Shown here piece after piece: positions 13,025-27,882 of a stretch of 64,000 bases of DNA. Position numbers and translations under genes: made by a program. The DNA is from Streptomyces griseoluteus (lineage in GTDB: Bacteria; Actinomycetota; Actinomycetes; Streptomycetales; Streptomycetaceae). A model generated the notes under the pieces. It worked only from the letters and a program-made list of their open reading frames with translations. It ran no database searches and was not told the DNA's origin. The stretch's first letter is position 1. Each line of letters begins with the position of its first letter. The DNA lies in NCBI GenBank assembly GCA_000717735.1, contig JOBE01000057.1, forward strand, positions 1-64,000. Direction: 5' to 3'.

Positions 13025-16000
13025 GTGGTCCGGGGGGACCCCACCTTGTTCGGTCGAATCCCGCCTGCACGCCGTCGCGTGCGGCGAACTGTCATACCCG
13101 CCCTGGGCGCAGCCCTGCTGGTGGGTCTGCTGCCTGCCCAGTCACTGGCCCTGCCACCCGACCCAGCGACGGCCGAGACCGGCCGGGAATCCCTCGCGTC
13201 AGTGCCTCTCGAGCTCGAGACCATCGAGGCGGAGAAGCCGGTCGAAGGCGCGACGCTCGAGAAGGACCTCGAGACGCTCAAGGAAGAAGTTCCTGCAGAT
13301 CTCCAGCAGGCCCCTACCGGGACCACGACGCCGCCGCCTGCGAACACGGGCACCGTTTCCTTCGGTTCCGTTCTCAGTGCGGCTCTGATGACGGAGACAA
13401 CTGCCGAGACGACGATTGAACCGAAGCCGGTTCCAGGCGTCCCGGTCAAGCTCGGCCAGGCCGAAGGCCAGCCCATGCCCACCGGAACCTGGGCAGCCAC
13501 GGTCATCGACCGGACCAAAGAGCTCAACGCCGGCATCGACCGCGCTCTGACGGTCGGCACACTCGTCACCGTCGAGGCACCCACCACCGGGTCCGTACCC
13601 ATCAAGGTGCAGCTGGACTACAGCAAGTTCGAGAACCTCTACGGCGCCGACTGGTCCTCCCGTCTGCGCCTCGTCCAGTTCCCCGAGTGCTACCTGACCA
13701 CGCCGCTCGAAGAGGCGTGCCAGGCGTACACGGAACTGGAAACGGTCAACGACGCCGGCACCGACTCGATCACCGCGACCGTCGACACGGCAGCCGACGG
13801 CACGACGACGCCCGCATCCTTCACCGGCGGCACTTCCCACTCCGGGCCCGCGATGATGCAGGCGTCCTACACCACCGCGACGCCCACGGCGACGGGCGGC
13901 GACAAGGCCGTCGTCGGCGCCGTCGACTCGGGTGCCGGCAACGGGGGCTCGTTCAAGGCCACCCCGCTCGCCTCCAGCGGCAAGTGGTCGGCGGGAGGCT
14001 CCTCCGGGGCCTTCACCTGGAGCTACCCCCTGGCCATCCCACCTGCGCCGGCCGGGCCCGCCCCCAACGTGTCGTTCAATTACAGCTCGCAGACGGTCGA
14101 CGGAAAGACATCCGTCTCCTCACCTCAGGCCTCGTGGATCGGCGAGGGCTGGGACTACGACCCCGGCCACATCGAGCGCCGCTACCGCGCCTGCAAGGAC
14201 GACACCAAGACGCTCAAGGCCGGCGCGCCCAACAACACCGCCAAGGCCGACAAGACCAGCGACCTGTGCTGGGTGTCCTACAACGCCGTGATGTCACTCG
14301 GCGGCAAGACCACCGAGCTGGTGCGCGACGACGCGGCGACCACCGATGCCGAAACCGGCACCGAGACCTACCGCTCCCAGAGTGACGACGGCACCCGGAT
14401 CCGCCGCCACACGGGCGGAACGAACGGCGACAACAACGGCGAGTACTGGGTCGTCACCACGACCGACGGAACCCAGTACTACTTCGGCCAGAACAAAATC
14501 GACGGCGGCCACGCCAACACGAACTCAGTGTCGACCGTGCCGGTCTTCGGCAACCACCCGGGCGAACCCTGCTACCAGGAGACGTTCGCCAACTCCCGGT
14601 GCGGGACGAGCAAGCAGGCGTGGCGCTGGGGCCTCGACAAGGTCGTCGACGTTCACGGCAACGTGATGGTCATCAACTGGACTCAGGAGCAGAACCACTA
14701 CGCGGTCCGCGAGAAGCGGAAGACCCCGGAACAGTACGACCGGTTCGCCTACCCGACGAGCATCGAGTACGGGATGCGCGCGGGCACACTGACCAATCCG
14801 GCCGCCAAGGTCGAATTCGGCGTCCAGCAGCGCTGCCTCAAGTCCGAAACGGTCTGTGCCCCCGCCAACTTCGACAAGACGGGCGACGCCGGCGCCTACC
14901 GCGCGTGGTGGGACACCCCGGGCGCGCTGAACTGCAAGTCCACCTCGAGCCTCTGCCCCGCATTCCCCTCGTTCTGGACCCAGATGCGTCTGGGCGCGGT
15001 GACGACATGGGCGGCACGGGCCGGCCAGACGGGCCTGGGCAAGGTCGACACCTGGAACCTGTACCAGTCGTTCCCGGAAGACTGGTACGACTCCTCCCCG
15101 GGCCTGTGGCTCAACTCCATCACCCGGAGAGGCTTCGGCCCCGGTGACACCACCGGCACCCTGCAGTCCAAGGACGGCGTCAGCTTCGCCAAGTACACCG
15201 TGGGAACCACCTCCCCACTGCGAGGCCGGCTGAAGGACCAGCAGCTCCGCAACCTCGTACCGGCCGGCTCGACCGACCAGCGGCCTCCGTTCACGCGCCC
15301 CCGCATCGGCACGGTGGCGACCGAAGGCGGCGGCAGCATCGAGGTCGAGTACGCGGGAGGCTGCAAGGAAGAGCCGACCGAGGACAAGGGGCAGGCCAAC
15401 ACGTACTGCTACCCGGTGCGCTGGTCCCCTGACGGTGAAGAGAAGACACCGGCCAAGGCCTGGTTCAACAAGTACGTCGTCGACTCGATCACCGAAACCG
15501 ACAAGGTCACCTCGCCCTTCAGCAAGCCCATCTACACCAAGTACCGGTACTACGGACCGGCCTGGGCGAAGAGCAACGACGAATTCACCCGCCCGGCACT
15601 GCGCACCTACAGCGACTGGCGCGGCTACGGCAGGGTCACCGTCACCAAGGGCAGCAGTGTCGGCGACGGCACGTGGTACACCCCGCAGTCACAGTCGTTC
15701 TCCGAGGCCCGCTACTTCCAGGGAATCGGCGGCGAGATCAAGGACTCCACGGGCAAGGCCCTGCCCGTGGACAACGAGCCGCAGTACGCGGGCATGACCT
15801 CGGAGACCATCACCTACCTCAACTCCGACAGGCCGGCCGGCGGCATGCCGAAGGTCGTCAGCCGGACCCTGAGCGTTCCGGAGTCCACACAGACCGCGTC
15901 GCGAAGCCGCGAGGCCGAGGACGGCAGCGACCCCGGACCACTCGTCGCTCACAGGATCAGCGTCAAGCAGTCCGACGCCATACAGACAGTCGGCAGCAGC

Positions 16001-19000
16001 TGGCAGGCGGTGCGGACGGCCACTCTGGCTCGGGACGAGTACGGCCTGCCGACCGAGGTGGAGACCGCGGTCGTCAAGCCCAACGGCACCGGCGAGAACC
16101 TCTCCGAGCAGACCTGCACCAAGACCGTGTACACCAACAGCACGTCGGACTGGCTCATCGGTCTGACCAAGACCAAGCGCACCACCGCCACCCCCTGCGC
16201 GAGCGTCGACACGGCCAATCCCGCCACGGAGCTGAAGAGCTCGGTGGAGATCACCTACGACGACGGCGGCGCCCTCACCAAGGGCCTGCCCACCAAGGTC
16301 TCCGAGATCGACGGAACCGGAACCTCACACTCGGTCACCACGACCACGACCTACGACCCCCTGGGCCGGATCCGCACGGTCACCGCACCGGGCTCCGGAA
16401 CGACCGAAACCGTATACACCCCCGGTGACGGAGGTGGCCCGGTCACAGCCGTCAAGACCAGCAAGACCGTCAACAACAAGGTCCACGCGACCACCACGAC
16501 CTACGACCCCGGCCGAGCACTGCCCCTGACGGTGACCGACCCCAACAATCGAGTCACCCGTACCCAGTACGACGCGCTCGGCCGCCTGGTCAAGGGCTGG
16601 TCCGCCTCCCGCTCCTCCGGCAGCCAGGCTCCCAACGTCGAGATCGGCTACCAGCCAGCCGTCGCCACTGCCACCGAAACCAGCCCGGCAGCGGTCACCG
16701 TCAAATCCCTCAAGGACGACGGCACGTATGCCACTCAGATCACCGTCTACGACGGGCTGATGCGCCAGATCCAGACCCAGTCCGAGGCCGTCGGCCCTGG
16801 GCGGATCATCAGCGACACCAAGTACAACGATCAGGGCCTGCCCGCAGAGCAGACCAGCGGATACCTCGCCAAGGGCAACCCCGAGACCAAGGCCTTCGAG
16901 GTCAAGTCCGCCTCCCTCATACCCAGCCGGGTCAAGACCGTCTACGACGGTCTGGCACGCGCAACCCGCCAGACCACCTTCCACGGCACCACCGCCAAGT
17001 ACTCCTCGTACACCGGCTACGTCGACAACAGCGTCACCGTCGACCCGCCCGGCTCCACGGTGCCCAAGACGACGACCACCTCCGATGCCCTCGGCCGTGT
17101 CACCGACATCCGCCACTACACCACCCTCGCCAGCAGCGGTCCCTACCGCACGACCACCTACGGCTACGACCGGCGCGGCAACCGCACCTCGGTCACCGAC
17201 CCGGCCGGCAACGCCTGGACGTACGTCTACGACGCCCGGGGCCGGGTGACCTCCTCCACCGACCCCGACACCGGCACCACCGAGACGTGGTACGACGAGG
17301 CCGACCGCCCGGTGGAGGTGAAGGACCAGCTCCAGCAGTCGACCAAGACGACCTACGACACGCTCGGCCGTATCACCGAGGTGAACGGCGGGCCGACGAC
17401 CGCCCCGCAGATCAAGAGGTTCACCTACGACATGACCGGGGCACTCGGCCTGCCCTGGGAGTCCAAGCGGGTCACCAGCGCCGGCGAGTACATCGACCGG
17501 GTGACGGGCTACGACACCGAGTACCGGCCGACCGGACGCGAGACGGTCATCCCGCAGAACACCATGACCACGGGCCTGTCGGGCACCTACACGTACGCGT
17601 ACACGTACACACCCACCGGCAAGCCGCTGTCGGTCACGCTCCCCGCGAAGGGTGGCCTGAACAGCGAGAAGGTCATCACCCGCTACACCGAGGACGGACT
17701 TCCCGAGTCGACCTCCGGCCACAGCTGGTACACCACCGACGTCACCTACTCGCCCTACGGCGAAGTGCTCCGCACCGTCTCCGGCGCCCAGCCCTTCCGG
17801 GTCTGGACCACCAACTTCGTCGACGAGCACACCGGCCGCCTCCAGCGCACCGTGAGCGACCGGGAAGCGACGGACTACCATCGCGTCGCCGACGCACGGT
17901 ACGCCTACGACACCTCGGGCATGATCACCGCGAGCGCCCGGGAACTGGCCGACGGGTCCGCGAGGACCTGGGACAACCAGTGCTTCACGTACGACGCCAT
18001 GGGCCAGCTGGTCAACGCCTGGACCTCCTCCATCACACCACCCGCCGTCACGCAAGGAGGGGTGGGCGGCACCGGCTGCAAGTCGGCATCGGGAGCCACC
18101 TGGGGCCACCGCTTCGACGGAGCCGCCTCCAGCGGACCCGTCGCGGACGCCGCCCACCAGACCGGCGCGTCAGCACCCGCCAACCTCGCCGGCACGGCCC
18201 CCTTCGCCGGCACCATCGCCACCGGCACGACCGCCTACCGCCAGTCCTTCACCTACGACTGGCTCGGCAACCGCGCCACCCACACCGACCACGACCCGGC
18301 CGGCAACACCGCCAACAACACCAGCTACACCTACAACTACCTCGCGACCCAGCCCCACACACTGGCCTCCGTCGCTACCACAGACACCGCCAAAAGCAGC
18401 ACGTACACGTACAACCCCACGGGCACGACCCGGACGCGCGGCTTCCCCGGTGACGCCCAGGACCAAAACCTCGAGTGGACGTCCGAGCAGAAACTCGAGT
18501 CGAACACCGTAGGCACAGGCACCACGGCCACGAAGACGACCTACGTCTACGACGCCGCAGGCAACCGCCTTCTGGAGAACTCCCCCGCAGGCAGCACCCT
18601 CTACCTCGGCGAAACCGAACTCACCACCGACAAGGTCGGCCTGATCACCCGCGCTTCACGCGCCTACGGCCAAGCGGGGGCCCCGACCGTCGTACGCACC
18701 ACCAACGGCACCCCCACAGGCCACACCCTCAGCGCCCTGATCACCGACCACCTCGGCACCGCCAACACCACCGTCGAACTGTCCACCGGCCAGCCCGTCA
18801 CCCGCCGCAGCTTCAAGCCCTACGGCGAACTCCGCGGCCCGAAGCCGACCACCTGGCCCAACAAACGCAGCTACCTCGGCGTCGGCATCGACGACACCAC
18901 AACCGGCCTCACCCACATCGGCGCCCGAGAATACGACCAAAAAACCGGCCGCTTCCTCTCCGCCGACCCCCTCATCGACATCACCGACCCGCTCCAGATG

Positions 19001-20335
19001 AACGGGTACACCTACGCCAACAACAACCCCGTTTCAAAGAGCGACCCCACCGGCCTCGCCCCCATGGCCTCCGGCGGAAACGCGCGAGACGAAGACGACT
19101 ACCATCGCACCAACGGCACCGACGTCACGGTGACATCCGGAGGGAAGTTCGCCCTCGGCGAGTACGTGGGATACCTCCCCGGGCCCTCGCTCAACGACAC
19201 CATGTACTTGAAGCACGGCCTGGGAAGCGAGCCTCTCCCTGCCCCCACAAAGGGCCTCGCAAAATACCTGCGGATATACCACAAGAGCCTTAGCGCAGTC
19301 AACTTTACGGTCGATAGCGATAGGTACAATGAGTCATCCCTGAAAATAAGCGCGCATTTCAGCGCCTGCAATTCAAAAGGCGTTGAATGCGCAGACGACC
19401 TACACGAGGAGCGCTACACTAAGCAGGCCCAAGAGTACGGCCTGGACGGCTCGGCAGCGAAATGGCGGGCGCCCCGCCAAAAGCCAAAGTCCAAGTCAAC
19501 CGATTGCAATCACAGTTTCCTCCCCGACACCAAGGTTCTCATGGGGGATGGAAGCCGGAAGAAGCTCAAGGATGTGAAGGTCGGCGATGTCGTCATCGCC
19601 ACCGATCCTGGCACCGGAAGAAATTACAGGAAGCGCGTTGCCGAGGTAATCCGCACCGAAGACGACAAGAGTTTCACAAGCCTCACCATCTCCGTCAACG
19701 GGCAGCTCTCCGAAATCATCGCAACGGACACCCACCCCTTCTGGGTGCCGGACCTTCGTGAGTGGGTCGAGGCAGGGAACCTCAAGGCCGGCCAGCTCCT
19801 GCGCACCAGCTCGGGGACCCATGTCCAGATAACCCAGGCCACTCGCTACATCAAGCAGCAGCGCACGTACGACCTGTCGATCGATGACATCCACACGTAC
19901 TATGTGCTGGCGGGAGCCACGCCGGTCCTGGTTCACAATTGTGGCGGCCAGGTGGAATATGGTGGCAATGATCTGAGCCAGGCTGTCATACAGGAACGGC
20001 TGAGGACGGGGAACAAGTCCAACAATTTTGCGGCGGTGAGGTACACCGATGCGAATGGGGACTCGCAGATTGCGGTCGCAGTCTCCTCGAAGGGTCTGGG
20101 TAACCATGCGGAGCGTAAATTGCTCAGGCAGTACGGGGATTCGATCACTGAAGCCTATTCGGAATTCCAGCCGTGCACTGGGACGAATAAGTGCCGCAGC
20201 AGGCTAGCTGAGGCTGGCATACCAACGACTTGGACTTGGGGTTGGACCACCTCGGCTGAGGGTGCTGCCGCAAGGTCCGCCAAGGGTAAAGCGGTGACTT
20301 CGATGTTCAGGGACGCCATATCGGGCAACTGGTAA
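13025..20335 (+). CDS. RHS-repeat polymorphic toxin with Hint domain and C-terminal deaminase-type toxin
   Basis: Protein of 2,436 residues. An N-terminal secretion signal (RRRVRRTVIPALGAALLVG) precedes a long series of RHS/YD repeats ending in the RHS core motif near YDQKTGRFLSADPL. Residues about 2158-2306 form a Hint (intein-like) domain: Cys start, G-D-V-V-I, T-D-T-H-P-F-W and the end VLVHNC, the set needed for self-cleavage. The last 130 residues carry HAERKLL and PCTGTNKC, the His-Ala-Glu and Pro-Cys...Cys zinc motifs of nucleic acid/nucleotide deaminase toxins. The tail after the RHS core is visibly less GC-rich. The likely immunity gene follows at once. The GTG at 13025 is uncertain; TTG and GTG codons lie slightly downstream. 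Confidence 0.88.
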   Translation: MVRGDPTLFGRIPPARRRVRRTVIPALGAALLVGLLPAQSLALPPDPATAETGRESLASVPLELETIEAEKPVEGATLEKDLETLKEEVPADLQQAPTGTTTPPPANTGTVSFGSVLSAALMTETTAETTIEPKPVPGVPVKLGQAEGQPMPTGTWAATVIDRTKELNAGIDRALTVGTLVTVEAPTTGSVPIKVQLDYSKFENLYGADWSSRLRLVQFPECYLTTPLEEACQAYTELETVNDAGTDSITATVDTAADGTTTPASFTGGTSHSGPAMMQASYTTATPTATGGDKAVVGAVDSGAGNGGSFKATPLASSGKWSAGGSSGAFTWSYPLAIPPAPAGPAPNVSFNYSSQTVDGKTSVSSPQASWIGEGWDYDPGHIERRYRACKDDTKTLKAGAPNNTAKADKTSDLCWVSYNAVMSLGGKTTELVRDDAATTDAETGTETYRSQSDDGTRIRRHTGGTNGDNNGEYWVVTTTDGTQYYFGQNKIDGGHANTNSVSTVPVFGNHPGEPCYQETFANSRCGTSKQAWRWGLDKVVDVHGNVMVINWTQEQNHYAVREKRKTPEQYDRFAYPTSIEYGMRAGTLTNPAAKVEFGVQQRCLKSETVCAPANFDKTGDAGAYRAWWDTPGALNCKSTSSLCPAFPSFWTQMRLGAVTTWAARAGQTGLGKVDTWNLYQSFPEDWYDSSPGLWLNSITRRGFGPGDTTGTLQSKDGVSFAKYTVGTTSPLRGRLKDQQLRNLVPAGSTDQRPPFTRPRIGTVATEGGGSIEVEYAGGCKEEPTEDKGQANTYCYPVRWSPDGEEKTPAKAWFNKYVVDSITETDKVTSPFSKPIYTKYRYYGPAWAKSNDEFTRPALRTYSDWRGYGRVTVTKGSSVGDGTWYTPQSQSFSEARYFQGIGGEIKDSTGKALPVDNEPQYAGMTSETITYLNSDRPAGGMPKVVSRTLSVPESTQTASRSREAEDGSDPGPLVAHRISVKQSDAIQTVGSSWQAVRTATLARDEYGLPTEVETAVVKPNGTGENLSEQTCTKTVYTNSTSDWLIGLTKTKRTTATPCASVDTANPATELKSSVEITYDDGGALTKGLPTKVSEIDGTGTSHSVTTTTTYDPLGRIRTVTAPGSGTTETVYTPGDGGGPVTAVKTSKTVNNKVHATTTTYDPGRALPLTVTDPNNRVTRTQYDALGRLVKGWSASRSSGSQAPNVEIGYQPAVATATETSPAAVTVKSLKDDGTYATQITVYDGLMRQIQTQSEAVGPGRIISDTKYNDQGLPAEQTSGYLAKGNPETKAFEVKSASLIPSRVKTVYDGLARATRQTTFHGTTAKYSSYTGYVDNSVTVDPPGSTVPKTTTTSDALGRVTDIRHYTTLASSGPYRTTTYGYDRRGNRTSVTDPAGNAWTYVYDARGRVTSSTDPDTGTTETWYDEADRPVEVKDQLQQSTKTTYDTLGRITEVNGGPTTAPQIKRFTYDMTGALGLPWESKRVTSAGEYIDRVTGYDTEYRPTGRETVIPQNTMTTGLSGTYTYAYTYTPTGKPLSVTLPAKGGLNSEKVITRYTEDGLPESTSGHSWYTTDVTYSPYGEVLRTVSGAQPFRVWTTNFVDEHTGRLQRTVSDREATDYHRVADARYAYDTSGMITASARELADGSARTWDNQCFTYDAMGQLVNAWTSSITPPAVTQGGVGGTGCKSASGATWGHRFDGAASSGPVADAAHQTGASAPANLAGTAPFAGTIATGTTAYRQSFTYDWLGNRATHTDHDPAGNTANNTSYTYNYLATQPHTLASVATTDTAKSSTYTYNPTGTTRTRGFPGDAQDQNLEWTSEQKLESNTVGTGTTATKTTYVYDAAGNRLLENSPAGSTLYLGETELTTDKVGLITRASRAYGQAGAPTVVRTTNGTPTGHTLSALITDHLGTANTTVELSTGQPVTRRSFKPYGELRGPKPTTWPNKRSYLGVGIDDTTTGLTHIGAREYDQKTGRFLSADPLIDITDPLQMNGYTYANNNPVSKSDPTGLAPMASGGNARDEDDYHRTNGTDVTVTSGGKFALGEYVGYLPGPSLNDTMYLKHGLGSEPLPAPTKGLAKYLRIYHKSLSAVNFTVDSDRYNESSLKISAHFSACNSKGVECADDLHEERYTKQAQEYGLDGSAAKWRAPRQKPKSKSTDCNHSFLPDTKVLMGDGSRKKLKDVKVGDVVIATDPGTGRNYRKRVAEVIRTEDDKSFTSLTISVNGQLSEIIATDTHPFWVPDLREWVEAGNLKAGQLLRTSSGTHVQITQATRYIKQQRTYDLSIDDIHTYYVLAGATPVLVHNCGGQVEYGGNDLSQAVIQERLRTGNKSNNFAAVRYTDANGDSQIAVAVSSKGLGNHAERKLLRQYGDSITEAYSEFQPCTGTNKCRSRLAEAGIPTTWTWGWTTSAEGAAARSAKGKAVTSMFRDAISGNW

Positions 20336-20350
20336 GGTAGTTCCAATATG

Positions 20351-20390
20351 ACGGTTGGCCCGCCGCCCACATGGGCGGCGGGCCAACCGT
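20351..20390. terminator. Perfect 19-bp hairpin between toxin and immunity genes
   Basis: Arms 20351-20369 and 20372-20390 are perfectly complementary with a 2-base loop. It lies 15 bases after the toxin stop and 28 bases before the immunity start. It could terminate most toxin transcripts, in which case the immunity gene needs its own promoter or readthrough. Confidence 0.75.
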
Positions 20391-20418
20391 GTAGCTATGG
20401 GAATGGAGGCGGGTGTCG

Positions 20419-20904
20419 ATGGCTAGCCACCGCTACTCGATCGACTATGTTGCATTCGTGAGGAACTCCGCTGCGCGCGGGTATCTTTCTTCCGTCGGTC
20501 TACCTGCCGAGCATGTCCTCTTTTCGGCTTCAGAAGCCGCTGATGGCGGGGTCGAGAGCGCTGAAGGTCGACACCTTCTTAAATTGGGATCTGGTGGAGA
20601 TGGCGATGACGCGTACTGCGTTGACTGTAAAAGCGGAGAGGTACTCTACCGCGGTAGCGGTGATTCGTCCCTGTTTTTTGTGAATTCGTCACCGCAGAAA
20701 TTCTCTGAGTATTTGAGTGTGTTTGAACGTGAAACCGCTCGATCCGCAGGTGAAGATGATCCAGAAATGCTGGAAGAACTTGCTGATCTACTGGCGATGT
20801 CATTCCAGGAGATTGATGCGTCGGCTCTGCAGGACGATCCAGGATTTTGGCGTTCAATTCTCTTCGATGTGGCAATCGGCGACTATGTCGATGACGAGGA
20901 GTGA
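20419..20904 (+). CDS. SUKH-4-type immunity protein
   Basis: Protein of 161 residues (MASHRYSIDYVAFVR...). The segment HLLKLGSG...AYCVDCKSGEVLY followed by LFFVNSSPQKFSEYL matches the core of SUKH-4 immunity proteins, which bind and neutralise polymorphic toxins, including deaminase types. ATG at 20419 is preceded by GGAGG at a usable distance; the GTG at 20413 is too close to it. The low GC matches the toxin tail, so the pair probably arrived as a unit. It is the obvious antidote to the RHS deaminase. Confidence 0.75.
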   Translation: MASHRYSIDYVAFVRNSAARGYLSSVGLPAEHVLFSASEAADGGVESAEGRHLLKLGSGGDGDDAYCVDCKSGEVLYRGSGDSSLFFVNSSPQKFSEYLSVFERETARSAGEDDPEMLEELADLLAMSFQEIDASALQDDPGFWRSILFDVAIGDYVDDEE

Positions 20905-20922: not shown

Positions 20923-22159
20923 GTGAACAGCAAGGTCCTGCCCGTCAGGATCGACCTCGCCCGCTCGGCCGGCGGCGACTTCGAGCACCTCGTCCTCACC
21001 CTCCGGGCCGCCCTCGCCGCCATCGGCCGCCCCCTGCCCGCCTTCGACCTCGCGCTGCGCCGCTACTGGGAACACCAGCACCCGGGCGAGCCTCTGGAGG
21101 CGTACCTCCAGCGCGGCGGGCTCACCGCGAAGTTCGGCAAGACGATGCCGCAGCAGATGCAGTCCGCGCTCTCCGACGTCGCCCAGGCCCTGCTCCTGCC
21201 CGGCACCGTCGGCAGCGCCGTCGGGCAGGTCACCGACTCCCTCGTCCGCGCGCTGCGCGAACGCCGGCAGACCGTGCGCGCACTCGCCTCCTGCTTCCGG
21301 CTCGCCGACCTGCTGGAGGCCGAACCCGACCTGGATACGCTCTCCTTCTACCCGCACCTGCTCGCCTGGGAGCTCGACCGCCTCCCGGAGAACAAGAAGG
21401 TGACGCCGGTGATCCTGCTGGACACCTTCGAGGACGTCGGCGACCGCACCCACCGCGACCTGGAGCGGCTCATCCAGCGCGTCGTGTGGCTGCTGCCGAA
21501 CGCGTTCTTCGTCATCACCGGCCGCGCCCGCCTGCAGTGGGCCGAGCCCGCCCTCCAGGGCCAGCTCGACTACACCGGCCGCACCGCCTGGCCCGGCCTC
21601 GCCGTCTCCTCCCGGCCCGGCGGCATCCCACACGCCCGCGGTCTCCTCCCCCGCGACATCCCGGTACGTGGGCGGCAGGTCCTGATCGGCGACTTCGCTC
21701 CCGAGGACTGCGACGACTACCTCGCCCGACGGCTCGAAACAGACGGCACCGCGCTCATCCCCGAGCCCGTACGGAACGTGATCACCCGCCGCTCCCACGG
21801 CCTCCCGCTCTACCTCGACCTGTCGGTGATGCGGTTCCTCGAACTCCGCCGCACCGGCCACACCCCCGCACCGGCCGACTTCGAGCACGACTTCGGCGCC
21901 CTGATCGCCCGCACCCTGGCCGACCTCACCCCCGACGAGCGCCACGTCCTGCGCTCCGTCAGCCTCCTGGACGCCTTCGACGAAGACCTCGCCACCCAGA
22001 CCGCCGGCCTCACCCACCACACGGCGGCCCGGCGCCTGATCGAACGGCCCTTCGTCCACGAGAACCCCTTCGGCCTGTGGCCCCACCACCTGCACGGCCT
22101 CATCCGCTCCACCATCCGCAGCGCCGACGACCTCACCGACGACCGCTGGACCCCCGTCG
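20923..22159 (+). pseudogene. STAND-type ATPase gene, middle part (5'-truncated, then interrupted)
   Basis: Open from GTG at 20923. It encodes RIDLARSAGGDFEHLVLTLR..., a Walker-B-like ILLDTFEDVGDR, FFVITGRARLQWAE (sensor-like) and a winged-helix-like region. No P-loop precedes it, so the nucleotide-binding start has been lost, apparently at the junction with the toxin/immunity unit. The frame runs to 22159, where a 4.55-kb segment begins; the formal stop at 22162-22164 is inside that segment. Coding resumes in the same frame at 26713. The original gene was probably an NTPase-TPR signalling protein. Confidence 0.75.
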
Positions 22160-22175
22160 TGTAGGTTCGCACTTC
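22155..22175. repeat. Target duplication and left terminal inverted repeat
   Basis: CGTCG at 22155-22159 followed by the element end from 22160. The first nine bases are identical to the reverse complement of the right end. Confidence 0.8.
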
Positions 22176-22218
22176 AAGTGGCCCCTTCTCGTTCGCCGTG
22201 GCCTCTCTCCGGCCCAAA

Positions 22219-22235
22219 GGACAGCGCGGTGAGAC
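22219..22235 (+). repeat. Subterminal motif, left copy
   Basis: GGACAGCGCGGTGAGAC. Two related copies in the same orientation lie near the right end (26611-26627 and 26638-26654). The shared pattern is GGACA-N6/7-TGAGAC. They could be protein-binding sites for mobility or regulation. Confidence 0.45.
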
Positions 22236-22530
22236 GGACTCCTGTCCTATGATCGTGGAGATGGCTCAGCTGGTAGAAGTTGGCCCTTTTGCGCCCTGGC
22301 CTTGCTGCTCGGGGGTGGGGGCGTGTCAGAGCCAGAGTGCCGGGCTAGATTCCCCAGGCTGGGACACCCGACCGCGTCTGCGGAATCAGATGTAGAGCGC
22401 GGAGGGAGCTTGCCCAGCCGACTCGCTTCGATCGTGGTGAGGGGCAGAGAACCATCAGTTCTCGCGAGGCGTCTTGTTTCCCGCGAGGTTAACTGCGGAT
22501 TGTGCAGGGGATCAGGCAGGCACGGGTTCT

Positions 22531-22998
22531 GTGACGGAACAGCTGGGGGCGATGACGTTGTTCGACGAGGCATTGGTGGCGCTTGCGGCGGCGGGGGGCA
22601 CTGCGGTGGTGCAGGCTGCGAGCACGGATGCCTGGACCGGGTTCCGCCAGGCAGTGGCCCGGTTGGTCGGCCGAGGAGATGAGCAACGGACGAGTAGCGC
22701 GATGCAGGCACTTGACGGGACGGCGGCAGCTCTACAGGCCGCCGACGCGGAGCGTGCGGAACAGGTGGGCGCGCGTCAGGAGCAGCTCTGGCAAGCCTGC
22801 TTCGGCGACTTGCTGGAAAACGTTGACGGGCCAGAGCGGGCTCGTGTGGTCGCCGACCTACGCGCACTGATCGAAGAACACGCCCCACCAGCGTCGGCGA
22901 ACAGAGACCAGGTCTCCGGCAACACCTTCAACGGGCCCACCGCCCTTCAGACTGGCAACCACAATCGGCAGGTGAACCGCTTCGGGTCGGAAGCATGA
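22531..22998 (+). CDS. Bell-like small protein with C-terminal amyloid-type signalling motif
   Basis: Protein of 155 residues. The N-terminal helical region (LVALAAAGGTAVVQAASTDAW) resembles the Bell domain described in actinobacteria, the bacterial counterpart of fungal HeLo-type cell-death domains; this is from memory of the family. Residues 125-151 form the motif R-D-x-V-x-G-N-T-F-N-G-P...L-Q-T-G-N-x-N-x-Q-x-N-x-F, nearly the same as the N-terminus of the next protein. The last bases overlap the next start (ATGA at 22995-22998), so translation is coupled. GTG at 22531 or ATG at 22552 could be the start. Probable role: membrane-acting effector triggered by amyloid templating. Confidence 0.65.
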   Translation: MTEQLGAMTLFDEALVALAAAGGTAVVQAASTDAWTGFRQAVARLVGRGDEQRTSSAMQALDGTAAALQAADAERAEQVGARQEQLWQACFGDLLENVDGPERARVVADLRALIEEHAPPASANRDQVSGNTFNGPTALQTGNHNRQVNRFGSEA

Positions 22999-25900
22999 CG
23001 GCCACGCCCGGCCGAGACAGAGTGGCCGGCAACACGTTCAACGGCCCTGCTTTCATCCAGATCGGCGACGGCAACCAGCAGAACAACTACTTCGTCGCGC
23101 CCTCCCAGCAGCTCCGTCAGCCGCCGCCAGTGCAGGAGGTCGCCGACTGGGTGGTTGACCGCCCTGAGGCCGACGAGGTCATCGCCACGGTGTGCTCGCA
23201 GGAGGGCGGCGCGGTGGGGATCACCACGGCCCTGGAAGGCGCGGGCGGATTCGGGAAAACGATGCTCGCCAAGAAGGTGTGCACGAGCCCCCAAGTGCGG
23301 CAGCACTTCGGGGAACGGGTGTACGCATTCACCATGGGCCGGGACGTGCGCCGCAAGGCCGACATCGCCAGGAAGGTCGGCGAGGCGATCCGCTTCATTA
23401 CCGAGGACGCCACGCCGTTCGAAGACCCAGAACTGGCCGGAGCCCACCTTGGGCGGCTCTTGGACCAGCACGACGATCAGCGCTTTCTCCTGGTCATCGA
23501 CGATGTCTGGAGCAAGGAGCAGCTCGCTCCCTTCCTTATCGGCGGTAGGCGCTGCGTGCGTCTGGTGACGACCCGCCGCCCCGAGAGCCTCCCACCAGAC
23601 ACGCAGCGGATCCGCGTCGATGAAATGGCCACCGGCCAGGCGAGCGCAGTGCTCACCTGGGAGTTGCCCCCCTTGCCCGAAGCGACAGTCCAGGGGCTGC
23701 TGCGGGCCACCGGTCGCTGGCCCTTGCTGCTGCGCTTGACCAACCGCGTGATCGCCACACAACTGGACACGGGTGCTCCCCCTGCGGCAGCCGCTCAGGG
23801 TGTGCTGGAACTGTTGGAGAGACAAGGCCCAGCCGCAGTCGACGTCCTGGCACCGTCCGCAGGCCCGGACGACCTCGACCACAGCCGGAGACTGCTCGAC
23901 GACCCCGAACAACGCAAGCGCCTGGTGCGAGCAACGGTCGAAGCCGCGACCGAACTACTGCCCGGGGAGCACGAGAAGCGATTAGCCGAACTCGGCATCT
24001 TCGCCGAGGACGAGTCGGTCCCCATCCCCCTTGCGGCCAAGCTGTGGCATGCCACCGGCGGGCTCGACGAGATGCAGGCACGACAGCTATGCAAGACGCT
24101 TCACGATCTGTCCCTGCTTACCATGAACAGGGTGGACGGGGGCCGGCTGACCCTGCACGACGTCATCCGCGATTTCCTGCGCCACGACCTTGGCCCTCGT
24201 CGCGTCGCCGAGCTCAACTCCACGCTGGTGGATGCAGTCGCAGCCACCTTGTCCCCGCCCACGACCCTCACCCCTTCAGGTCCCCGATCACGCGCTGCGT
24301 GGTGGGAACTGACGGACCAGTACCTGCTCGACCACGCCGTGGCGCACATGCTGGCCGCCAGGCGTACTGATGAGGCCGAGGCGATCGCCTTCGACTTGCG
24401 CTGGGTCGAGGCCCGGCTCTACCAACGCGGCCCCACGGCCCCCTGGAGCGACCTTGCCCGGATCCCTACTCGCGGAGCCCGAACCCGGGCACAAGATCTC
24501 GCTCGTGCCATGCATTTGCTCGCCGACGTCCAGCCCACCCACGCCGTGAGCGCGATCCTCCGCAGCCGCTTGGAACCTCTCACTGCGTGGCACGATCAGG
24601 TCCGCGCCCTGGAGCGCCACCCTGGCCCGCCGGCCCTGATCAATGCCTGGCCCCCACCGGACCTTCCCGATCCTCTGCTCCTGCGCACGCTCACCGGCCA
24701 TCTTGAGGTGACAGCGATAGCGATCGCCCCCGACGGCACGCGGCTCGCCACCGGCGACGGCTACGACGGCAGCGTACACATCTGGGACATGGCCACCGGG
24801 CGGAACGTCACCACCTTCGCCGGCCGCACCGACCGTGTGAGCGCGAGCGCCCCCGAAGGAACCTGGACGAAAGACCACGTGACTACAGTGGCGATTTCCC
24901 CTGACGGAACCTGGCTGGCCGCAGCGCATGCCAACGGCACGGTCTGCATCTGGGACATGGCCACCACCCAGAACACCACCATCCTCAGCAGCCCCCTCAA
25001 ACCGGCGAACACGATGGCGATTTCCCCTGACGGAACCTGGCTGGCCGCGGGGTACGGCGACGGCACGGTCCGTATCTGGGACACGGCCACCTGGCGGAAC
25101 ACCACCATCCTCACCTGCCACGACAGTCCCGTTCTCGCCGTAGCGATCGCTCCCGACGGAACGTGGCTCGCCACCGCCAACAGGGACGGCTTCGTGAGGA
25201 TCTGGGACACGACCACCGGCGAGAACACCACCACCCTCGGCCGCAGCCCCGTGTGGGTGAGCGGGGTGATGATCTCACCTGACGGAACCTGGCTCGCCAC
25301 CACTGGTGGAGGCAGCACGGTGCACATCTGGGAGGTGGCCACCGGACAGGTCACCGCCACCCTCGCGGACGAGAGGGGCCGCGTGATCGCGGTGGCGATC
25401 TCACCCGACGGAACCTCACTCGTCACCGCCACCAGCAACAACAAGCGCGACGGAACCGTGCGGATCTGGGACCGAGCCACCGGCGAGAACACCGCTACCC
25501 TCGGCGGCCCGGGATGGGTGCACACCCTGGCCATGTCACCCGACGGCGCCTGGCTCGCCATCGGGCACGGCAAGGCGGTGTCGATCTGGGACACGACCAC
25601 CGGCCGGAGCGCCGCCGCCCTCAACGACCGTAGAGGCTGGGTGAATTCAGTCGCATTCTCGCCCGACGGAACTTGGCTCGCCACCGGCCATATCGACGAC
25701 GACAACGTCGTAGCCCTCTGGGACCGGGTCACTGGCGATAGGATCAAGATCCTCACGGGCCACACCGGTCGTGTACAGGCATTGGCGATCGCCCCTGACG
25801 GATCATGGCTCGTCACGGTTGGCGGGGACCGCGCGGTCCGCATCTGGGACACGGGTTCCGGCCGGACCGTCGCCACCCTCACCGGCGATCTCAGCATGGA

Positions 25901-26564
25901 CTCGGTGGCGATCGCCCCCGACGGAACCTGGTTCGCCGTCGGCAGCTCCCGATTCGCAGCGGCGCACGTGCGGATCTACGATCGGGCCACCCGGCGGAAC
26001 ACCATCACCCTCGCGAGTCGAAACACCGTGTTGCATGCGTTGGAGATCGCCTCCGACGGCACCTGGCTCGCCACCGGCGGCAACGGTGATGACGCGGTGC
26101 GCATATGGGACACGGCCACCGGACAGAACACCATCAGTCTCACCGGCCACGACCCGCGTTACGTGCAGGCGCTGGCGATCGCCCCCGACGGAACCTGGGT
26201 CGCGACTGTAGGGGGGGAAGACGACAAGGTGCGGATCTGGGACCGAAATACCGGAAAGGTCGTCACCACCCTGGCCGGCCACACGGAACCAGTGCTGGCG
26301 GTGGCGATCGCCCCCGATGGCCTATGGCTCGCCACCGGCGGCTGGGACCGCACGGTGCGGATCTGGAATGCGACGACGGGACATCCCGTGACCATGATGC
26401 GCTTCGAGGAGCCGGTCTACGCCTGTACCTGGGCACCGGACGGTCACAGCCTTGCGGTGGGCAGTGTCGGTGGGCTGTACCTGTATGAATTCCGATCTGA
26501 ATCCGATGTGAGGTGTACGCCTGTCCCCGCCCCGCCGACCTCGCGATCACCGTCACCCAAGTAG
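22995..26564 (+). CDS. NLR-like protein: amyloid-type motif, NB-ARC, 14 WD40 repeats
   Basis: Protein of 1,189 residues. Residues 7-33 are R-D-R-V-A-G-N-T-F-N-G-P-x-F-I-Q-I-G-x-x-N-x-Q-x-N-x-F; the I-Q-I-G core recalls RHIM-type motifs. An NB-ARC domain follows: P-loop GAGGFGKT at 82-89, Walker B LLVIDDVW at 165-172, RLVTTRRPE, and the GRWPLLL segment. A winged helix and an LHD (MHD-like) motif come next. Residues about 560-1170 contain 14 WD40 units (APDGTWLATG...VRIWDTATG), enough for two seven-blade propellers. This is a STAND sensor: the propellers detect a trigger, NB-ARC oligomerises, and the N-terminal motif would seed the partner's identical motif. Confidence 0.85.
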   Translation: MTATPGRDRVAGNTFNGPAFIQIGDGNQQNNYFVAPSQQLRQPPPVQEVADWVVDRPEADEVIATVCSQEGGAVGITTALEGAGGFGKTMLAKKVCTSPQVRQHFGERVYAFTMGRDVRRKADIARKVGEAIRFITEDATPFEDPELAGAHLGRLLDQHDDQRFLLVIDDVWSKEQLAPFLIGGRRCVRLVTTRRPESLPPDTQRIRVDEMATGQASAVLTWELPPLPEATVQGLLRATGRWPLLLRLTNRVIATQLDTGAPPAAAAQGVLELLERQGPAAVDVLAPSAGPDDLDHSRRLLDDPEQRKRLVRATVEAATELLPGEHEKRLAELGIFAEDESVPIPLAAKLWHATGGLDEMQARQLCKTLHDLSLLTMNRVDGGRLTLHDVIRDFLRHDLGPRRVAELNSTLVDAVAATLSPPTTLTPSGPRSRAAWWELTDQYLLDHAVAHMLAARRTDEAEAIAFDLRWVEARLYQRGPTAPWSDLARIPTRGARTRAQDLARAMHLLADVQPTHAVSAILRSRLEPLTAWHDQVRALERHPGPPALINAWPPPDLPDPLLLRTLTGHLEVTAIAIAPDGTRLATGDGYDGSVHIWDMATGRNVTTFAGRTDRVSASAPEGTWTKDHVTTVAISPDGTWLAAAHANGTVCIWDMATTQNTTILSSPLKPANTMAISPDGTWLAAGYGDGTVRIWDTATWRNTTILTCHDSPVLAVAIAPDGTWLATANRDGFVRIWDTTTGENTTTLGRSPVWVSGVMISPDGTWLATTGGGSTVHIWEVATGQVTATLADERGRVIAVAISPDGTSLVTATSNNKRDGTVRIWDRATGENTATLGGPGWVHTLAMSPDGAWLAIGHGKAVSIWDTTTGRSAAALNDRRGWVNSVAFSPDGTWLATGHIDDDNVVALWDRVTGDRIKILTGHTGRVQALAIAPDGSWLVTVGGDRAVRIWDTGSGRTVATLTGDLSMDSVAIAPDGTWFAVGSSRFAAAHVRIYDRATRRNTITLASRNTVLHALEIASDGTWLATGGNGDDAVRIWDTATGQNTISLTGHDPRYVQALAIAPDGTWVATVGGEDDKVRIWDRNTGKVVTTLAGHTEPVLAVAIAPDGLWLATGGWDRTVRIWNATTGHPVTMMRFEEPVYACTWAPDGHSLAVGSVGGLYLYEFRSESDVRCTPVPAPPTSRSPSPK

Positions 26565-26610
26565 TCCCGACCCGTCCGTCATCTCAACTGCCGCCGGACA
26601 GGATGAGTAA

Positions 26611-26654
26611 GGACACGGTAGTGAGACGAACTCAAGAGGACACTGCGTTGAGAC
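26611..26654 (+). repeat. Subterminal motif, two right-end copies
   Basis: GGACACGGTAGTGAGAC at 26611-26627 and GGACACTGCGTTGAGAC at 26638-26654, 27 bases apart, so nearly three helical turns between matching points. Both match the copy at 22219. Confidence 0.5.
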
Positions 26655-26695
26655 ATCCAGCATGAAGCTGGTCACCGCTACTCCAGGGGACATCG

Positions 26696-26716
26696 GAAGC
26701 GAGAACCTACACGTCG
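26696..26716. repeat. Right terminal inverted repeat and target duplication
   Basis: The inverted repeat ends GAACCTACA at 26703-26711 and is followed by the second CGTCG copy at 26712-26716. Confidence 0.8.
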
Positions 26717-27882
26717 ACTGGGAACGGGCCGCCGTACGCGCGCACACCGCGCTCGGCGAGCAGTGGACCACCGGACCGGACCGCGACCGGCTCCTCCTCG
26801 TCGGCTGCCTGCGCCAGGGCCTCACGCTCGCCCGAGACTTCCGCCTCGACCTCGGCTGGCTCACCGACGCCGCCTGGGCCTACGTCAGCGACTCCGTCTG
26901 GGAACCGGTCGCCCCAGCCGAACGCGCCGACCACGCCCATGCGGACGGAGCCGGCACCGGGCTGCAGACCGCCGCCGACGCCCTGACCGAGCTCCTCAGC
27001 ACGCTCGCCCGCCGCCAGCACGAGCACCGCTCCATCACCGCCGACCGGCTCACCGCCCTCACCACCGCCAGGCTGCTGCCCGACGAGCTGCAGCAGATGG
27101 CCGTCTACTACCTCGCCAAGGCCAACCGCGACCTCGGCCGCTCCGCCGACTCACGGCTCGGCATGCAGTACGTCGCCGACACCGACGGCCGCCTCGCCCC
27201 CGCCGCCCGCCGCGGCCTCGCACACCTCGCCCGCCTCGCAGGCGACTTCCCCACCGCCCACGCCGTGATCCCCACCCTCGGATGGGCCGGCCGGCACCAC
27301 CGCGTCGACGGCGACATCTGGTGGCCCCACGGCGACATGCACCGCGCCGCCACCGCGTACGAAGCCGCCCGTGACGAAGCAGAGCGGCACGGCGTCGCCG
27401 GCGAACGAGCCACCTGTCAGGCGCAGCGCGCCTTCGCCCTCGCCTTCACCGACCCACAGATCGCCGACGACGAACTCGAACTCGCCGAACAGCTCCTGAC
27501 CGGTCTCGACCTCCGCGCCACCGCCCTCACCGTGCGGATCGCCGCCCTCGTCCGCGACGCCGGGACCGACCGCGACATCCCCGGCCGCGCCGAGGCCATC
27601 CGCACCGAAATCCGCACCACCGGGCTCGTCGCGCCGGAGGCGATGCTCGAACTCGGCCTCACCTTCCACCACGCCGTACGTGACGACAGAACAGAGTTCG
27701 AGGCCGCCGTCGAGCGACTGGAACACCTCACCGGCGACTACGCGTACTACGCCAACATCGCGGCCTTCATGGCCGACCGGCCAGCCCCCTCAACGCGCGC
27801 ACGATGGATCGAGAGCGAAGCCACAGTTCATCGACGGTGGCGGCACCTCGTCACCACACGCCGCACCGGCGATCACCAGTGA
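26713..27882 (+). pseudogene. STAND-type protein, C-terminal TPR-like part (after the insertion)
   Basis: Continuation of the gene interrupted at 22159. It starts V-DWERAAVRAHTALGEQW and runs to a stop at 27880-27882, encoding about 390 residues of helical repeats (LLPDELQQMAVYYLAKANR, RDEAERHGVAGERATCQAQR) like a TPR effector/sensor region. The frame is identical to the upstream part once the element and one CGTCG are removed. An ATG at 26662 inside the element's right end could allow a separate product, but a functional one is unlikely. Confidence 0.75.

Follow-up and report, generated by a model that had tools for sequence, protein, structure and literature searches.

According to the available portions of PMC7889193, PMC8086366 and PMC9815663, the bacterial Bell/BASS signalosomes (Dyrka et al. 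2020) associate a small predicted helical protein displaying a C-terminal motif with an NLR that displays the same motif at its N-terminus. The two genes are adjacent or overlapping, and the BASS3 motif has a RHIM-related core. A two-gene module with this organization was found in Streptomyces griseoluteus, on positions 1 to 64,000 of contig JOBE01000057.1 (this 64,000-nucleotide stretch is called the window here), and by its architecture it is best read as belonging with these Bell/BASS NLR amyloid signalosomes. Its larger protein is a receptor predicted to fold like Apaf-1. We consider it probable that this receptor, with a RHIM/BASS3-like motif in the place of CARD, seeds an amyloid-type assembly that it shares with its small partner and so activates the latter, whose predicted helical bundle would then attack the cell's own membrane. 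The features of the module are the following:

22552..22998, + strand: effector gene, 148 amino acids (alternative start GTG 22531)
22558..22881, + strand: predicted five-helix bundle, Bell-like, effector residues 3-110 (structure model)
22903..22983, + strand: effector C-terminal motif RDQVSGNTFNGPTALQTGNHNRQVNRF, residues 118-144, modelled as short strands of low confidence
22995..26564, + strand: receptor gene, 1189 amino acids, its start codon overlapping the effector stop (ATGA)
23013..23093, + strand: receptor N-terminal motif RDRVAGNTFNGPAFIQIGDGNQQNNYF, residues 7-33, with pLDDT under 50 in the monomer model
23223..23579, + strand: NB-ARC match, receptor residues 77-195, with P-loop GAGGFGKT at 82 and LLVIDD at 165
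24315..24464, + strand: APAF1_C helical-domain match, receptor residues 441-490 (22.5 bits, just under the cut-off of 22.8)
24633..26498, + strand: 14 WD40 repeats, receptor residues 547-1168, predicted beta-propellers

An earlier, sequence-only reading had described two overlapping frames that share a motif and had seen in them an NLR coupled to a small cell-death protein. The frames, their coordinates and the ATGA overlap (effector end 22998, receptor start 22995) were recovered unchanged. The shared motif is real: over 31 residues (RDxVxGNTFNGP...QxGxxNxQxNxF), the effector tail can be aligned to receptor residues 1-60 with no gap, at a local score of 91, while 5,000 shuffles gave no more than 53. 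Among the scored candidates of the window's own genome (20 of the 38 found at first look), the motif profile matched only these two at E <= 0.01. The bounds then proposed, 22531..26564, do hold the module, while the effector start is better placed at ATG 22552 and the cassette carrying both genes is wider (22160-26711); relatives of the effector begin at the equivalent of ATG 22552 and not of GTG 22531 (P0001: 148 amino acids, 95% identical).

The core of the motif resembles BASS3. A Frankia BASS3 peptide, VQVGDGNVQINRF, published as aggregating with amyloid signatures in the portion of the report available, aligned over 13 residues to the core of the receptor motif (IQIGDGNQQNNYF) and of the effector motif (LQTGNHNRQVNRF). 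In this comparison, made with that one published peptide, the receptor core scored 45, reached by none of 20,000 shuffles, and the effector core 39, reached by two of 20,000. The two glutamines of QxGxxNxQ are seven residues apart, which is the spacing of Q113 and Q120 in S. atratus BASS3, where proline at either position abolishes foci (available portion of PMC9815663). The receptor tetrad IQIG agrees with the RHIM consensus (V/I)-Q-(V/I/L/C)-G. The core is preceded by a GNTFxGP stretch, which by eye is like the tails EISGGTQHGPVVQ and EISGGTFHSPVQ of same-family effectors P0081 and P0115; on this likeness, two BASS types may be combined in the motif.

The NB-ARC domain of the receptor was well above the Pfam cut-off (52.1 bits against 23.5, E 7e-14). 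Its AlphaFold2 model displayed a mean pLDDT of 82.6 and was weak in some loops, at the C-terminus and at residues 1-37, where the motif lies and pLDDT was under 50; the motif tail is predicted to be disordered, as is that of the effector. The top five PDB structural matches of this model were all Apaf-1 or apoptosome chains, the first of which, 3sfz, aligned with the whole receptor over 1,232 alignment columns (E 5e-55). Overall TM-scores were 0.45-0.57, so that domain order agrees better than relative placement. No CARD was found at the receptor N-terminus, where residues 1-60 gave no Pfam match at E <= 10, and in the model it is the RHIM-like motif that stands in the place of the Apaf-1 CARD. 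In PADLOC-DB 2.0.0 the receptor matched HEAT-ARM_XIII only, with its best stretch at residues 772-966 in the WD40 region, and corresponded to no anti-phage system model.

The effector was predicted to be a small alpha-helical bundle, residues 3-110 forming five helices of high confidence, followed by a low-confidence tail with three short strands across the motif. Its N-terminal helix is rich in alanine and glycine and moderately hydrophobic, with a Kyte-Doolittle peak of 1.49 against the transmembrane threshold of 1.6. No Pfam family was detected at cut-off, no NCBIfam family and no PADLOC-DB 2.0.0 model at E <= 0.1, and no enzymatic domain was recognised with Pfam or NCBIfam. The predicted fold fits the published account of Bell, in which a hydrophobic helix is part of a small helical bundle; this likeness is one of description. 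Effector homologues were present in 36 plasmid records and none was found in phage records.

The sequence-only reading had counted an absence of motif pairing in homologous loci among the grounds for refuting it, and the pairing is clearly conserved. The motif profile (A1) matched 50 of 392 Streptomyces genomes (E <= 0.01), from which 40 loci were fetched and, with the window, 41 examined. At 28 of them the motif occurred in two neighbouring genes; this profile was built with 11 effector and five receptor motifs, and those (five of the 28 receptor copies) were found by construction. The second start overlapped the first stop by four bases in 26 pairs, by one base in another, and lay 21 bases away in the last. 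Motif similarity within the 28 pairs was 72.8, against 65.8 +/- 1.7 with partners permuted (0 of 20,000 permutations reaching it) and 69.3 +/- 1.2 with partners permuted within receptor class only (48 of 20,000). In the 15 pairs under 70% effector identity, the corresponding values were 73.3 and 66.9 +/- 2.4 (114 of 20,000).

Thirteen of the 41 loci were left out of this test. Seven encode fused effectors (L069, L070, L072, L076, L095, L100 and L104), with the motif in mid-protein and a further domain after it; six had no second motif above threshold, and in L095 a weak second motif lies some 0.8 kb past the effector. The other six were L080 (truncated second motif), L082 (two effectors, partners unclear), L086 (motifs on opposite strands) and L081, L083 and L106 (second motif not above threshold); in the genome of L083, a diverged VQIGNDN motif was seen in the next frame. 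Four of the seven fused effectors displayed an open frame of 285 amino acids, and 'cell division protein ZapB' is the annotation of one relative on a plasmid. At L093 (genome G019), the receptor gene lies between two motif-bearing effector-like open reading frames (nt 1070, 1198 and 2703, reverse complement).

Relatives of the receptor differ in their N-termini. These were classed by rules of our own in 120 listed homologues of 582, some records being partial: 14 displayed the RHIM-like motif, 72 one or two predicted membrane helices, nine an IANTGY-type stretch and one another BASS-like stretch, while 20 were short and four were otherwise. The motif profile used for these classes and for the loci below (A3) held one locus twice and one wrong edge letter in one row. 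With a membrane-helix relative as query, 23 genomic loci were gathered; a P-loop was readable in 21, and L157 and L162 were dropped. Both motif-bearing receptor loci (the window and G119) had an effector gene upstream and no predicted membrane helix, a small and not blind sample, as both were known as pairs beforehand. The effector gene was found at none of the 19 motif-less loci (17 with terminal-repeat duplicates counted once) in the fetched stretch of about 1.5 kb upstream, and predicted membrane helices were present at 18 of the 19. On these sequences, the simplest reading is that motif and separate effector replace a built-in membrane part. The occurrence of membrane helices where both are absent suggests that motif plus effector would supply the membrane step, and, if the mechanism holds, this natural swap makes the role of the amyloid step open to test by direct comparison.

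The 28 partners of the motif-bearing effectors were sorted by sequence into five classes:

Class A, three partners: NB-ARC/WD40 proteins
Class B, four partners: STAND-TPR proteins (only L079 was scanned: TPR, AAA_16)
Class C, 12 partners: proteins of 671-801 amino acids with a NACHT-like ATPase and hydrophobic segments
Class D, seven partners: short single-pass proteins
Class E, two partners: other short membrane proteins, with no Pfam match

Two class B frames (L067 and L093) look disrupted. Pfam NACHT was above cut-off in L073, below it in L101 and absent from L090, these being the three class C members scanned; their designation as membrane NACHTs rests also on similarity and on hydrophobic stretches identified by eye. 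In class D, four members were scanned, and Pfam detected a ricin-type lectin domain in L068, L097 and L099 and nothing in L102. A protein search from L097 returned 42 relatives, all with one predicted membrane helix, of which 40 had a precomputed ricin-type lectin (exceptions P0280 and P0281) and 33 the strict N-terminal motif pattern. In a sample of 199 genomes, the lectin protein occurred in two, both times adjoining a motif-bearing effector, at loci already in the set.

The exchange also goes in reverse, the same helical effector body being found with other tails. At L033, it displays the tail NDFGRASFTNSQVLGSGNM, mirrored by eye near the N-terminus of a downstream NLR-like gene; this shared tail is possibly a second motif class. 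Effector paralogues at L018, L019, L022, L023, L028 and L035 have tails of the type GGLAAGRD...IAAGVIHGG...PDPSQG, and at L019 and L028 the next gene is NLR-like, without a visible copy of that tail. It is a serious, if tentative, possibility that one interchangeable RHIM-like amyloid plug connects a single kind of small membrane-killing protein to four or more Streptomyces sensor chassis (Apaf-1-like NB-ARC/WD40, STAND-TPR, membrane NACHT and single-pass outward ricin-type lectin), that bacterial amyloid signalling accordingly runs outside-in as well as in the cytosol, and that the unit spreads as transposase-less Tn7-like cassettes. If true, the lectin-bearing partners would imply that amyloid plugs also serve bacteria in sensing outside the cell. 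Among the literature matches listed, no experimental paper dealt with bacterial amyloid signalling in phage defence, and none with a lectin-type partner.

Both genes of the window lie on a cassette, whose features and immediate surroundings are:

20923..22164, + strand: 5' part of a split gene for a plasmid-type ATP/GTP-binding protein
22155..22159: left CGTCG, 5-bp direct repeat, probable target-site duplication
22160..26711: cassette of 4,552 bp with both genes and no transposase gene
22160..22240, + strand: left end of the cassette, 81 bp, its first 16 bases an imperfect inverted repeat of the right end
26662..27882, + strand: 3' part of the split ATP/GTP-binding protein gene, in an open reading frame that starts inside the cassette
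26696..26711, - strand: right terminal inverted repeat
26712..26716: right copy of CGTCG

The limits are set by a copy of 4,542 bp on a S. xanthophaeus plasmid, which has the same ends and is 96.8% identical over 4,554 columns, similarity stopping at 22160 and 26711. That copy begins inside an annotated mobF frame and displayed no exact adjacent 5-bp repeat. The gene interrupted in the window is unbroken on the two other Streptomyces plasmids fetched (890 amino acids in L113), and its two parts align to L113 residues 99-502 and 505-883. The cassette ends are inverted over 14 of 16 bases, a figure matched in three of 200,000 trials of random placement. TGT...ACA inverted ends and a 5-bp target duplication are typical of the Tn7-like family, and the window cassette shows TGT...ACA inverted ends and a 5-bp direct repeat.

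In 12 of 295 Streptomyces genomes, counting that of the window, the left 81 bp are found as the end of an element. At one of these copies, a gene 128 bases away has a TnsA-like domain (26.6 bits against a cut-off of 26.5) and an integrase-core match below cut-off (20.2 against 32.6), and is followed by a TniB gene (42.2 against 22.4). Because of this neighbourhood, the cassette is described as having Tn7-like ends without a transposase; no tnsA, tnsB or tnsC was found inside it, the two module genes alone accounting for 22160-26711. To move, it would need a transposase supplied from elsewhere; if the mechanism holds, such a mobile cassette would explain how the module could move among Streptomyces replicons. 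Ends of the same family also bound a 6.7-kb stretch at L134 (6008-12699), in which an open reading frame gave CHAT and Clp_N matches, and such ends may carry other cell-death cargo. Elsewhere in the window, positions 13025-20904 encode, as judged by eye, a large polymorphic toxin of the RHS/YD-repeat kind whose C-terminal stretches are Hint-like and deaminase-like, and after it Pfam identified a SUKH-4 immunity protein; positions 32000-56000 are rich in insertion-sequence matches to plasmids (TnpB, IS21, IS5).

In the mechanism considered probable here, the WD40 propellers would sense an intracellular trigger, most plausibly a phage product, and ATP-driven oligomerisation of the receptor would gather its N-terminal motifs. 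These would template the C-terminal motif of the effector, and the clustered effectors would permeabilise the membrane, leading to cell death or growth stop. Amyloid formation, toxicity, membrane action, WD40 sensing and phage defence are what we infer for the module; incompatibility, which the sequence-only reading had named beside phage defence, would be another putative role. Several observations weigh against this reading. The best BASS3 score among 1,226 other six-frame window segments was 38 and, as other segments come so close, the effector copy alone is weak evidence for BASS3. Its tetrad, LQTG, fails the strict RHIM consensus, which is why the motif is named RHIM-like only; the link with RHIM and BASS drawn in the sequence-only reading accordingly stood for the core and for the receptor tetrad, and not for the effector tetrad. 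The own partner ranked first for the effector in only three of the 28 pairs, the window's included, and similarity within pairs could come from gene conversion as well as from templating co-evolution. That the motif couples an NLR with a small helical protein is supported, and the sequence-only reading was right on the module and its likely logic. The Apaf-1 chassis, the several receptor types including membrane lectins, the membrane-helix swap and the Tn7-like cassette go beyond it.

Three other explanations were weighed. The motif could be an ordinary heterotypic docking element, for instance a small beta-arch binding one to one without amyloid, the effector being activated by gathering on the receptor ring as caspase-9 is by Apaf-1. 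The Apaf-1-like receptor, the better average match of true pairs and the shortness and low confidence of the motif in monomer models would all suit docking, which we nevertheless hold to be unlikely: the motif has the core of a BASS3 peptide which reportedly aggregates with amyloid signatures, and near-identical partner motifs suit homotypic stacking better than a two-sided interface. The membrane helices predicted in motif-less relatives (18 of 19 loci, 72 of 120 listed homologues) are also what would be expected if the small protein, as an adaptor or a membrane anchor, recruited the receptor to the membrane for a third component to act there; the effector has no recognised enzymatic domain. 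As the cassette has these two genes only, a host protein would have to take that third role, and we regard this explanation as improbable. Far less credible is that the pair serves the cassette or plasmid as an addiction module, with the receptor restraining an effector that is freed when the receptor is lost. The cassette does occur at two sites, of which one is on a plasmid, plasmid records contain effector homologues and the two genes overlap, but a STAND receptor of 1,189 amino acids and 14 WD40 repeats would make an unlikely antitoxin, and in six motif effectors of the fused type the fetched stretch gave no second motif that passed the threshold.

Compared with the Bell/BASS signalosomes, the module displays a GNTFxGP arm before the core (relative to the one published BASS3 peptide), its effector-motif unit also occurs with membrane lectins that are not NLRs, and it is carried by a cassette with Tn7-like ends; some of these traits may already be described in Dyrka et al. 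(2020). Tn7-like transposons, known to carry defence cargo (Benler et al. 2021, PMC8649781), typically share with the cassette the TGT...ACA ends and the 5-bp direct repeat, and the left end of the cassette also belongs to an element that has a TnsA/TnsB-like gene and a TniB gene next to it; unlike such transposons, the cassette holds no transposition gene. The anti-phage STAND proteins Avs and bNACHT, named in PMC10907252, likewise combine a STAND ATPase with a C-terminal repeat sensor but usually have N-terminal effector domains in the same protein, whereas here a separate effector is joined by the motif. With Apaf-1 the receptor shares NB-ARC, the helical domain (just under the Pfam cut-off), 14 WD40 repeats and a full-length structural match, the best found; it differs by a RHIM-like motif where CARD was not found and by a partner that is a helical-bundle protein instead of a caspase. 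The RHIM proteins RIPK1 and RIPK3 and the fungal PP-motif NLR/HELLP pairs are similar in the core QxGxxN and in the receptor IQIG, and differ in that the effector tetrad is LQTG here, with no kinase and in a bacterial operon. If the mechanism holds, one bacterial operon joins the Apaf-1 chassis of apoptosis to the RHIM-type amyloid of necroptosis.

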